NCBI RefSeq assembly: GCF_008802355.1
Contig: NZ_VZRA01000001.1
Location: 924,525 to 988,524 of the forward strand
Direction: 5' to 3'
Length of the DNA stretch: 64,000 nucleotides
DNA from: Oryzomonas sagensis
Lineage (GTDB): Bacteria; Desulfobacterota; Desulfuromonadia; Geobacterales; Pseudopelobacteraceae
Position 1 is the first letter of the stretch; the number at the start of each line of letters is the position of its first letter. A model generated the notes under the pieces. The model was not told where the DNA came from. It did not search any database and saw only the letters and a program-made list of their open reading frames with translations. Of this stretch, positions 32,208-58,619 are shown piece by piece. The position numbers and the translations under genes are program-made.

Positions 32208-32274
32208 CCTGAATCCGTGACGCCTCCATGCCGTGTTTGTCTGGAAGGCCTCAGCCTTCAGGGCGCCCTCCGGC
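32208..32274. repeat. family C repeat, left end only (copy 4)
   Basis: CCTGAATCCGTGACGCCTCC and the following ATGCC...TGTCTGGAAGGCCTC match the left part of the copy at 57946 almost base for base. There is no right terminal repeat; it runs into the end of the degT gene. Confidence 0.7.
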
Positions 32275-55185: not shown

Positions 55186-55364
55186 CCCCGAATCCGCGGG
55201 GCCCGCGCGGCTCCTCTCGCTTGCATGCCTCTGTCCCGGCGTTGCCGGTCGTATTCCCCTTCCGGGCGGAGTACGTGCAGTAGAGCCGGCATGACGCTCC
55301 ACGGGCGGCGTCGGGACCCCGGCCATGCCGCTCGCTCCGCCGCACAGGCCCCACGGATTCGGGG
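55186..55364. repeat. family C intergenic element (copy 1)
   Basis: Ends are inverted repeats: CCCCGAATCCGCGGGGCC (55186-55203) and GGCCCCACGGATTCGGGG (55347-55364), one mismatch in 18. The interior GGGCGGCGTCGGGACCCCGG and CGCTCGCTCCGCCG segments match copy 2. It fills the gap between the DMT gene and azlC and encodes no protein. Confidence 0.8.
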
Positions 55365-55417
55365 CGCGGCCGGATGCGGTTGGTTTGGGCAACTCACCTC
55401 TCCCGGATGATAAATCT

Positions 55418-56119
55418 ATGGCACAGACATTCGATTGCGTGAAAGAGGGGATGAAGGCGGCGTGGCCGATCTGCCTGGGGTATTTCCCCATCGGTCTCTC
55501 CCTGGGGGTGCTCGCCCAAAAGGGGGGACTGCTCCCCTGGCAGGTAGGGCTCATGTCGATCGTAGTCTATGCCGGCGGCTCCCAGTTCATCGCCGTTGCC
55601 ATGATCGGCAGCGGCGCCTCCATCCCGGCCATCGTTACCACCACCTTCATGGTCAACCTGCGCCACATGCTGATGAGCTCGGCTCTGGCGGTGCATTTTC
55701 CCGGCGTCTCCCGGCGGTTCCTGGCCCTGTTCGCCTATGGCCTGACTGACGAGAGTTTTGCCGTCAACATGGTCCGGTTCAACCGGGGCGACTGGGAGCG
55801 GCAGAGCGCCCTGACGCTCAACCAGGCTACCAACTTCACCTGGTTCGTCAGCACCGTGGCCGGGGTCTATGTGGGGCAGTTCATTCCCTCCGGCGCCCTG
55901 GGGATCGACTACGCCCTGACCGGTATGTTCATCTGCCTGCTGGTCTTCCAGTTGCGCGGCCCGGTTTTCGTTGCCACCGCCCTGATGGCGGCCTTCTGTT
56001 CCGTGGTAGCCTATCTCTGGCTGCCGGGCAACGCCTACGTGATCGTTGCCTCCACTGTGGCGGCAACGGCCGGATTCATGCTGAAACGCTCCCTGCGGCA
56101 CCGGGGAGGGCGGCCATGA
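55418..56119 (+). CDS. azlC: branched-chain amino-acid exporter large subunit, AzlC family
   Basis: A 233-residue inner-membrane protein with about six to seven helices. AzlC features: a basic/amphipathic start (CVKEGMKAAWPICLGYFPIG), YAGGSQFIAVAMIG, and TTTFMVNLRHMLMSSALA. Together with AzlD it forms a two-subunit exporter like YgaZH. The frame extends into the upstream repeat, so ATG 55418 (MAQTFD) is preferred. It overlaps azlD by four bases. Confidence 0.92.
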   Translation: MAQTFDCVKEGMKAAWPICLGYFPIGLSLGVLAQKGGLLPWQVGLMSIVVYAGGSQFIAVAMIGSGASIPAIVTTTFMVNLRHMLMSSALAVHFPGVSRRFLALFAYGLTDESFAVNMVRFNRGDWERQSALTLNQATNFTWFVSTVAGVYVGQFIPSGALGIDYALTGMFICLLVFQLRGPVFVATALMAAFCSVVAYLWLPGNAYVIVASTVAATAGFMLKRSLRHRGGRP

Positions 56120-56439
56120 GCGCCACCGGCTACCTCCTGCTGATCCTCTGCATGGGCGTTGTGACCTACCTGCCGCGCATGCTGCCCCTGGTGACTTTCT
56201 CCCGCCGGAAACTTCCCCCCTGGTTTGTGGAGTGGCTGGAGTTGATCCCCCCCGCCATCCTGAGCGCCCTGATCGCTCCGACGCTGTTTACCCAGGCGGC
56301 GCCACGGCTGTTCGTCCTGGGCAAGATCGAGTTGCTGGCCGCCCTGCCGACCCTGGCCTTCGCCCTCAAGACCCGCTCGTTGGCCGGGACGGTGGTGGTG
56401 GGGATGCTCTGCTACTGGGGGCTGCATTATCTGGTATAA
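56116..56439 (+). CDS. azlD: branched-chain amino-acid exporter small subunit, AzlD family
   Basis: A 107-residue protein with three to four helices, beginning with the AzlD pattern LLILCMGVVTYLPRMLPLV and containing IPPAILSALIAPTLF. It overlaps azlC by ATGA, so subunit production is coupled. A family C element starts six bases after the stop. Confidence 0.9.
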   Translation: MSATGYLLLILCMGVVTYLPRMLPLVTFSRRKLPPWFVEWLELIPPAILSALIAPTLFTQAAPRLFVLGKIELLAALPTLAFALKTRSLAGTVVVGMLCYWGLHYLV

Positions 56440-56444
56440 TTCGA

Positions 56445-56590
56445 CCTGCATCCGCGACACCTCCGCGACACCTCCACGGCTCCTCTCGCGTGACCTGCCC
56501 CAGTCCCGGCAGTGCCGGCATGATGCGGAATGGGCGGCGTTGGACTCAGGCCAGTCGCTCGTTCTGCCGTTCAGGCGCCACGGATTCAGG
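56445..56590. repeat. family C intergenic element (copy 2)
   Basis: Starts CCTGCATCCGCGACACC and ends GGCGCCACGGATTCAGG, the terminal inverted repeat of the family. The left part has a short internal duplication (TCCGCGACACC twice). The core GGGCGGCGTTGGACTCAGG followed by CGCTCGTTCTGCCG aligns with copy 1. Confidence 0.8.
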
Positions 56591-56685
56591 TCTCGTCCCA
56601 CCCGGAACAGGGCTTTGTGGTTGCCAACGGGGCGGTTTGTGGGTAAAAGGAACAGGTAGACAATAGAGATCGGAGATCGGCAACA

Positions 56686-57891
56686 ATGCATGTGGCGGAA
56701 TGGAAGATAGGGCCGGAGTCGGTGCGGATGCTGGAGTTGGGGCACCCCTGGATCATTGCCGACACGTACACCAAGCGCTGGCCGACCGGTCAGGCCGGTC
56801 AACTGATTGAGCTGGCCGACGGCCAGGGGCGCTTCCTGGCAACGGCCCTGCTCGATCCGCAGGATCGCATCGTGGCACGGGTGCTGTCCCGGGAGCGGAT
56901 ACGCCTGGACCGCGCCTGGCTGACGAAGCGTCTTCAGGCGGCCCTCGAATTGCGCCACAACCATGCCGACCTGGGGGACACCACCGCCTACCGGCTGGTC
57001 AACGCCGAGGGGGACGGGCTTCCCGGCTTGACCGTGGACCGTTACGGCGATTACCTGATGGTGCAGGTCTACTGCGCCGGCTGGCGGCCGTACCTGAAGC
57101 TCGTGACCCAGGCCTTGGGCGACCTGCTCGCCCCCCGGGGGATCTACGAGAAGAGCCGTCCCCAGAAGACGCGCCAACTGGAAGCGGTCAGCGACACCAA
57201 GAGCTACGGCAGGCTGCTTGCCGGTACCGCCGCGCCCCAGCGCCTGGAGGTGCGGGAAAACGGCCTCAGTTTCCTGGTGAGCCTGGAACAGGGGCTGAAC
57301 ACCGGGCTGTTCCTGGACCAGCGCAAAAACCGCCGGGACCTGATGTCCAGGGTGGCCGGCAAGCGGGTGCTCAACCTGTTCGCCTACACCGGCGCCTTCT
57401 CGGTGGCTGCCGCCTCGGCCGGGGCCGTCCAGGTGACGAGCGTGGACGCCTCGCCCGGCTATACCGAGTGGGCCAGGGCGAATTTCGGCCTCAACCGGCT
57501 CAATCCCAAGCGGCATGAGTTCATCGTGGGGGACTGCCACCAGGTGCTGACCGACCTGGGCAGCCGCGGGTGCCGTTACGACGTGGTGCTGATGGACCCC
57601 CCCTCCTTCTCCACCACGGCCAAGAGTCGCTTCACGACCCGCGGCGGCACCTCGGACCTGGTGGCGGCCGCCCTGCCGCTCTTGAGCGGCAACGGCCTTT
57701 TGATCGCCTCCTCCAACCACCAGAAGGTGGATACGGCAGAGTATCTCAAGGAGTTGCGCCGCGGCGCGCTCCAGGCGGGCAGCGACCTCAGGGTGGTCGG
57801 CCTGGCGGGGCAGCCGGAGGATTTCCCCTATCCGGTGACCTTCCCCGAGGGGCGCTACCTCAAGTACGCCCTCTGCGTGAAGGGGGCCTGA
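56686..57891 (+). CDS. class I SAM-dependent rRNA methyltransferase, RlmI-like
   Basis: A 401-residue methyltransferase: N-terminal PUA domain (about residues 1-80, LELGHPWIIADTYTKRW), an EEHD-like central part (LVNAEGDGLPGLTVDRYGDY), and a C-terminal Rossmann domain. The SAM motif is LNLFAYTGAFSVAA, and the catalytic DPPSF is in VLMDPPSFS. This is the architecture of RlmI, which methylates C5 of a 23S rRNA cytosine. The substrate position in this organism is not proven. It lies between two family C elements. Confidence 0.88.
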   Translation: MHVAEWKIGPESVRMLELGHPWIIADTYTKRWPTGQAGQLIELADGQGRFLATALLDPQDRIVARVLSRERIRLDRAWLTKRLQAALELRHNHADLGDTTAYRLVNAEGDGLPGLTVDRYGDYLMVQVYCAGWRPYLKLVTQALGDLLAPRGIYEKSRPQKTRQLEAVSDTKSYGRLLAGTAAPQRLEVRENGLSFLVSLEQGLNTGLFLDQRKNRRDLMSRVAGKRVLNLFAYTGAFSVAAASAGAVQVTSVDASPGYTEWARANFGLNRLNPKRHEFIVGDCHQVLTDLGSRGCRYDVVLMDPPSFSTTAKSRFTTRGGTSDLVAAALPLLSGNGLLIASSNHQKVDTAEYLKELRRGALQAGSDLRVVGLAGQPEDFPYPVTFPEGRYLKYALCVKGA

Positions 57892-57925
57892 ACAGGCTGG
57901 GGCATTTCGCTCGATCAGCCGTTCG

Positions 57926-57940
57926 GCGTCACCGATTCGG
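57926..57940. repeat. family C right-end fragment
   Basis: GGCGTCACCGATTCGG resembles the right terminal repeat (GGCGCCACGGATTCAGG) and sits just before copy 3, suggesting remains of an earlier or tandem copy. Confidence 0.4.
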
Positions 57941-57945
57941 AAAAA

Positions 57946-58123
57946 CCTGAATCCGTGGCGCCTCCATGCCTCCACTTGTCCGGAAGGCCTCTGCCTCTGC
58001 CGGGATGCTGACAGTCGGCCGCCCGGCGGCGGACCGGCGTGGTGAGAGGCTTGCTGCGGCATGGGCGGCGTGCGGGCTCCGGCTCTTCCGGCAACTCCGG
58101 CATTCCGGCGTCGCGGATTCAGG
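57946..58123. repeat. family C intergenic element (copy 3)
   Basis: Starts CCTGAATCCGTGGCGCC and ends CGTCGCGGATTCAGG. Its first 50 bases match the partial copy at 32208, and the core CGGCATGGGCGGCGT matches copies 1 and 2. It fills the gap between the RlmI-like gene and the next ORF. Confidence 0.8.
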
Positions 58124-58148
58124 AAAAAACAATGCACGAGGGTGCGCC

Positions 58149-58619
58149 ATGACCATGAACTACGGGTTCCTCAAGGATTTTGCCATTATCGTCGGCGGCC
58201 TGGTGACCATCTTCGCCTTTGTCAACGGCCTTCTGGAATACCGGCGCCAGGGGCGGCAGAAGCGGGAGGAGCATTTCACCCTGCTGCGCCGCCGCCTGAA
58301 GGAAAACCCGCGGTTCAAGGAGATCTGTTCCCTGATGTTCGCCGACGATCCGCGCCTGGCCCAGATCGACGCCCAGGACAAACGGGATTTCGTCGGCCTG
58401 CTGGAGGAGGTGGCCCTCCAGATGAACTCCGGGCTGATCCGCCCGGAACTGGCCCATTATATGTTCGGCTACTACACGCTTAAATGCATGGAGAGCAGGG
58501 ATTTTTGGGCCAACCTGACCCTCGACGAGATCTATTGGAACCTGTTCCACGATTTTGCCCGGGAGATGAAACGCATGGAGACCTCCTTTGTCTTCGATCG
58601 GCGCAAGTTGCGCTTCTGA
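58149..58619 (+). CDS. hypothetical membrane-anchored protein
   Basis: A 156-residue protein with one N-terminal transmembrane helix (about residues 8-28, FAIIVGGLVTIFAFVNGLL). A basic stretch (EYRRQGRQKREEH) follows, then a helical cytoplasmic domain. No family recognised. The open frame runs back into the family C repeat, so ATG 58149, after GAGGGTG, is taken as the start. Codon use and length support a real gene. Confidence 0.7.
   Translation: MTMNYGFLKDFAIIVGGLVTIFAFVNGLLEYRRQGRQKREEHFTLLRRRLKENPRFKEICSLMFADDPRLAQIDAQDKRDFVGLLEEVALQMNSGLIRPELAHYMFGYYTLKCMESRDFWANLTLDEIYWNLFHDFAREMKRMETSFVFDRRKLRF

Follow-up and report, generated by a model that had tools for sequence, protein, structure and literature searches.

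Our results indicate that the repeats occupying three consecutive gene gaps in the window analysed here (a stretch of 64,000 nucleotides from Oryzomonas sagensis) are MITEs of about 175 bp, whose ends have very probably been acted on in trans by a DDE transposase of the IS1380 family. The sequence-only reading of this window had described three repeats of 146-179 bp in one orientation, in the gaps DMT-azlC, azlD-rlmI and rlmI-58149. This description was borne out, as the elements measure 177, 146 and 178 bp, all lie on the + strand, each gap holds one copy, and the common core GGGCGGCGT occurs in all three. The elements align with one another, and many further paired ends are found genome-wide. 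The first copy (55187-55363; 177 bp, 127 bits, full-length) starts 3 bp past the stop codon of the EamA/DMT gene, in the gap before azlC; its ends read CCCGAATCCGCGGGGCC and CCCGAATCCGTGGGGCC, and no target duplication is left in its flanks. Compared with its orthologue in genome G049, which is full length at 174 bp, the second (56445-56590; 146 bp, 86 bits), between azlD and rlmI, has lost part of its interior, and 11 bp of its left tip are duplicated in tandem. The third (57946-58123; 178 bp, 166 bits, full-length), between rlmI and the ORF at 58149, is flanked by AAAAA at 57941-57945 and again at 58124-58128; it is the only one of the three window copies in which a target duplication survives, the other two being without. 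Bit scores and strand are given relative to the family consensus, and flanking genes were assigned by Pfam.

The alignment splits the copies into two subtypes, with those at 55187 and 56445 belonging to beta and that at 57946 to alpha. Past the end, the beta left arm is like CACGGCTCCTCTCGCTT and the alpha subtype reads TCCATGCC...GTCCGGAAGGCC, while the 17-bp ends are the same in both subtypes, as is the GGCGGCG core. Two partial copies had also been reported in the window, and both are real, although their extents had to be revised. What had been called a right-end fragment at 57926 is indeed a right end, that of an older beta copy, but it is larger, spanning about 57907-57940 on the + strand (TCGCTCGATCAGCCGTTCGGCGTCACCGATTCGG, compared with the beta right end), and the 57946 copy inserted adjoining it. 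The supposed left-end fragment at 32208 is not a left end alone: the element (32208-32262, + strand) keeps the left 49 bp and also the last 6 bp, and is thus an internally deleted alpha copy, a tip-to-tip deletion derivative whose orthologue in G049 is full-length.

The family extends far beyond the window. Its 17-bp end consensus is CCTGAATCCGTGACGCC, present as an inward-facing pair. With up to three mismatches allowed, this end has 65 matches in the 3.6 Mb genome (3.61 Mb in 18 contigs) against seven for a reversed control pattern; many of the matches are paired inwards about 175 bp apart, and more than 20 copies with paired inward ends could be recognized, mostly with about 175 bp between the ends. 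Most copies are 173-178 bp long, they are non-coding, and by a rough tally based on crude ORF calls they mostly sit tightly between ORFs. A covariance-model search of related genomes, as the sequence-only reading had proposed, was run with a model built from 24 copies; it detected the family in all six Oryzomonas genomes, in 32 of the 141 genomes of the order and in 12 of 29 genera, representing at least three families. The length remains near 175 bp almost throughout, in at least three of the order's families.

That these are non-autonomous mobile elements, as had been suggested, is established by 5-bp target duplications, by empty sites, and by IS1380-family IS with the same ends. A search for target-site duplications gave a clear answer: within an initial set of 23 copies, left and right flanks match over precisely 5 bp (65 matches out of 115 where 34 are expected; 0 of 5000 permutations), and the excess is far weaker at 4 and 6 bp. 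Among 108 copies from the six Oryzomonas genomes, 305 of 540 flank positions match at 5 bp against 149 expected, with a z of 15.1 that is inflated because orthologous copies are not independent; the confinement of the peak to 5 bp is not explained by this non-independence. Perfect 5-bp duplications flank 22 of the 108 copies, the targets are A+T-rich, and the same 5-bp duplications occur at copies from other genera and families.

Empty sites are found at orthologous positions. The copy at C1:1473953-1474126 is flanked by two TCCTT, and in G049 and G053 the matching flanks enclose a single TCCTT and no element, G050 having a close variant of the empty site. The 57946 insertion is also present in G051, and the corresponding site in G052 is empty, with a single AAAAA run; in G049 the copy is missing along with part of its flank, probably through a deletion. 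A further copy, at C1:377693 (TTACA), is shared with G049 and G051, whereas G052 and G053 lack it. Separately, the site orthologous to C1:1473953 is occupied by roughly 280-340 bp of unrelated inserted sequence, possibly another repeat, after TCTCCTT in G051 (C1:3025007-3025285) and G052 (C1:919212-919556).

The 5-bp duplication, together with ends of the form CCT..., pointed to the IS1380 family as the mobiliser, and this was noted ahead of the transposase search. Published IS1380 elements make duplications of 4-5 bp, and ISPsp9 has a length of 1718 bp with 5-bp repeats (PMC4133298). A transposase with the same ends, which the sequence-only reading had proposed looking for, is found in IS1380-family IS of relatives but not within the genus: searching with the IS1380 transposase model, we found no such gene in the six Oryzomonas genomes, two of which are single-contig, but several elsewhere in the family and in the order at large. 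The Oryzomonas MITEs therefore appear to be orphaned, and we infer from relatives which enzyme moved these copies. The full-length IS1380 elements of those relatives have tips reading CCTGAATCCGTGA or a close variant, with perfect 5-bp duplications in two of three: L067 (1691 bp; tips CCTGAATCCGTGATC and CCTGAATCCGTGACG) lies between GTGAA and GTGAA and L117 (1692 bp; tips CCTGACTCCGTGATC and CCTGAATCCGTGACG) between ATATA and ATATA, both perfect, and L063 (1693 bp; tips CCTGAATCCGTGACC and CCTGAATCCGTGAAG) between AAAAA and AACAA. The ORF of L117 encodes an IS1380 transposase (NF033539 at 298.6 bits, with a cut-off of 180, plus PF13701), and the genome in which it resides, G087, contains both the IS1380 element and a MITE copy. 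MITE and IS are identical over 13-16 bp at the tips and have no similarity inside, so the MITE does not derive from those IS copies by simple internal deletion. A second group of IS1380 elements in the same order (L069, L071, L086) has tips CCCAGATTTTCCATTAG; elements with such tips (L069 and L071) were excluded as partners because the tips differ.

In the most probable model, the 17-bp ends are binding and cleavage sites of an IS1380-family DDE transposase supplied in trans, which would pair both ends, after which the element would be inserted in an A+T-rich site, usually intergenic, and 5 bp of the target would be duplicated. The transposase has probably since been lost from Oryzomonas. On this model the three window copies, of two subtypes, inserted independently one after another, have been inherited since and are now decaying.

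The insertions in the three gaps differ in age. The DMT-azlC insertion is common to four species in some form, with an orthologue in G049, a truncated copy in G051 and a related copy in G052; the azlD-rlmI insertion is common to two species, and the 57946 copy to the O. sagensis genome and G051. The older remnant at 57907-57940 is present in G051 and, more diverged, is at least partly recognisable in G052. These age differences between the gaps fit repeated insertion into permissive gaps, including beside older copies. The clustering of three copies within 3 kb, which had been called unusual, is so only mildly: uniform placement gives a P of about 0.006, and a crude null restricted to intergenic DNA gives about 0.02. 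Genome-wide, there are five neighbouring pairs less than 5 kb apart where 1.0 are expected; in G051 the copies at 1292369-1292542 and 1292543-1292717 abut, and close copies also occur in sister genomes. Two further arrangements were seen in relatives. In the DMT-azlC gap of G052 (C1:390363-390641) two elements seem to abut or nest (...CACGGTTCCCGG TTATT GCCGAACCCGTGGC...), possibly because one copy inserted into the other's end, and in the downstream flank of rlmI in G053 (L129) a different family of palindromic intergenic repeats lies nearby (CACCACAAAGACACAAAGAACACAAAG...CTTTGTGCCCTTTGTGTCTTTGTGGTG).

Several features count against this explanation: the lack of an IS1380 transposase in the six Oryzomonas genomes, the missing target duplications at two of the three window copies, the restriction of the similarity with the IS to the tips, and a length that is unusually constant for a family without coding content. 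Single Oryzomonas copies also carry a matching non-consensus base, in some cases even a matching small insertion, in their two terminal repeats much more frequently than expected by chance (for example G000:C1:1477279-1477458, G051:C1:456825-457001 and G000:C1:1074443-1074619). It would be tempting to read the constant length and the matched variant ends as signs that transposition selects for the foldback as well as for the tips, with the folded element itself as the substrate of spread, either through hairpin-templated homogenisation of the arms or because the transposase requires the fold; we hold this to be unlikely. The matched variant ends suggest either that one arm is copied onto the other in source elements or that the two ends are selected together at transposition.

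The arms also bear on whether the repeats are RNA elements, that is, transcribed hairpins under selection as regulators, processing sites or intergenic terminators. The predicted folds of two window copies go well beyond those of shuffled sequences (z of -4.3 for 55187 and -5.6 for 57946), nine of 21 consensus pairs have changes on both sides, and over 63 independent insertions there are 41 matched changes in both arms against 6.7 by shuffling. However, the fold of the 56445 copy is no better than shuffles (z of -1.3), Rfam gives no match at gathering thresholds within the window, and no terminator- or promoter-like signal in the copies rises above shuffles. Identity between orthologous copies is 94.7%, compared with 96% in their flanks; being no more conserved than their surroundings, the copies are not constrained. 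Copies have, moreover, been gained or lost between species with exact target duplications. Between strict orthologues, whose differences must postdate insertion, only three of the 56 differences in the arms are symmetric, all at one site, a modest test given the few events; one further symmetric difference (T3/C3), between the 57946 copy and its G051 orthologue, falls outside the strict ortholog filter. Since changes after insertion are mostly one-armed, the matching of the ends mostly dates from insertion or earlier, and such decay of one arm at a time would be as expected of transposon ends, as far as these few events can indicate. An apparent matched change in situ at C1:1387062 was set aside, because the flanking sequence suggests that this copy and its supposed orthologues are separate insertions. 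The alternative raised by the sequence-only reading, an RNA-forming repeat, is not supported, given the null result with Rfam, a divergence no slower than that of the flanks, and the one-armed, pair-breaking changes since insertion, and we regard selection on a transcribed hairpin as highly improbable.

Another transposase that duplicates 5 bp could in principle have moved the elements, for instance one of the Tn3 family, as with the TIME elements of Pseudomonas. Tn3 elements and TIMEs likewise insert into A+T-rich targets, of which 5-6 bp are duplicated (PMC4133298), but the inverted repeats of TIMEs are about 38 bp long, whereas the conserved ends of the MITE are about 17 bp and match the tips of IS1380-family elements exactly, so that a Tn3-type mobiliser is already disfavoured and stands little chance of being the right one. 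Least credible is the idea that the repeats are ancient REP/ERIC-like palindromes between genes, without mobility of their own, whose copies arose through replication slippage or recombination and not through transposition: the copies are diverged, most of those in the O. sagensis genome are shared with other species and no transposase was found in the genus, but this reading is already contradicted by the precise empty sites. Against it also stand 5-bp target duplications at a z of 15 and insertion groups of which 36 of 64, by approximate grouping, are restricted to one species.

For intergenic repeats in Geobacteraceae, the family described here supplies a likely mobiliser, along with a defined boundary and a target duplication. 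Geobacteraceae genomes contain many unexplained multicopy sequences, some of which were earlier taken as regulatory sites. The MITE insertions are polymorphisms between Oryzomonas species, and the covariance model can be used in annotation. Our literature search returned no paper on an IS1380-derived MITE in relatives of Geobacter. The family is real, apparently has no name and is ordinary in kind. The remark in the sequence-only reading that no named family is known for it is plausible, but its nearest named counterpart, Chunjie, is a candidate for the same family.

Chunjie is a MITE of Geobacter uraniireducens Rf4, of 178-235 bp (Chen et al. 2008, via PMC10969869). As described there, it resembles the present MITE in being multicopy and intergenic and in having terminal inverted repeats and direct repeats, in a member of Geobacteraceae; the reported sizes are mostly larger (PMC10969869). 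In the published accounts of G. metallireducens and G. bemidjiensis, multicopy palindromic sequences are reported that are likewise intergenic, some of them palindromic or with inverted-repeat ends; unlike the present MITE, they are read in those accounts as regulatory sites or left unexplained (PMC2700814, PMC2996986), and they may include relatives of it. The TIMEs of Pseudomonas are similar in kind, being small, non-autonomous elements moved in trans, with 5-6 bp duplications and A+T-rich targets, but they differ in their length of 262 bp and their Tn3-type 38-bp ends (PMC4133298). Closest at the ends are the IS1380-family IS of Geobacterales (NF033539, PF13701), which have the tips CCTGAATCCGTGA(CG) and the 5-bp target duplication in common with the MITE; they differ from it in their length of about 1.69 kb and their transposase of roughly 450 aa, the MITE having an unrelated interior.
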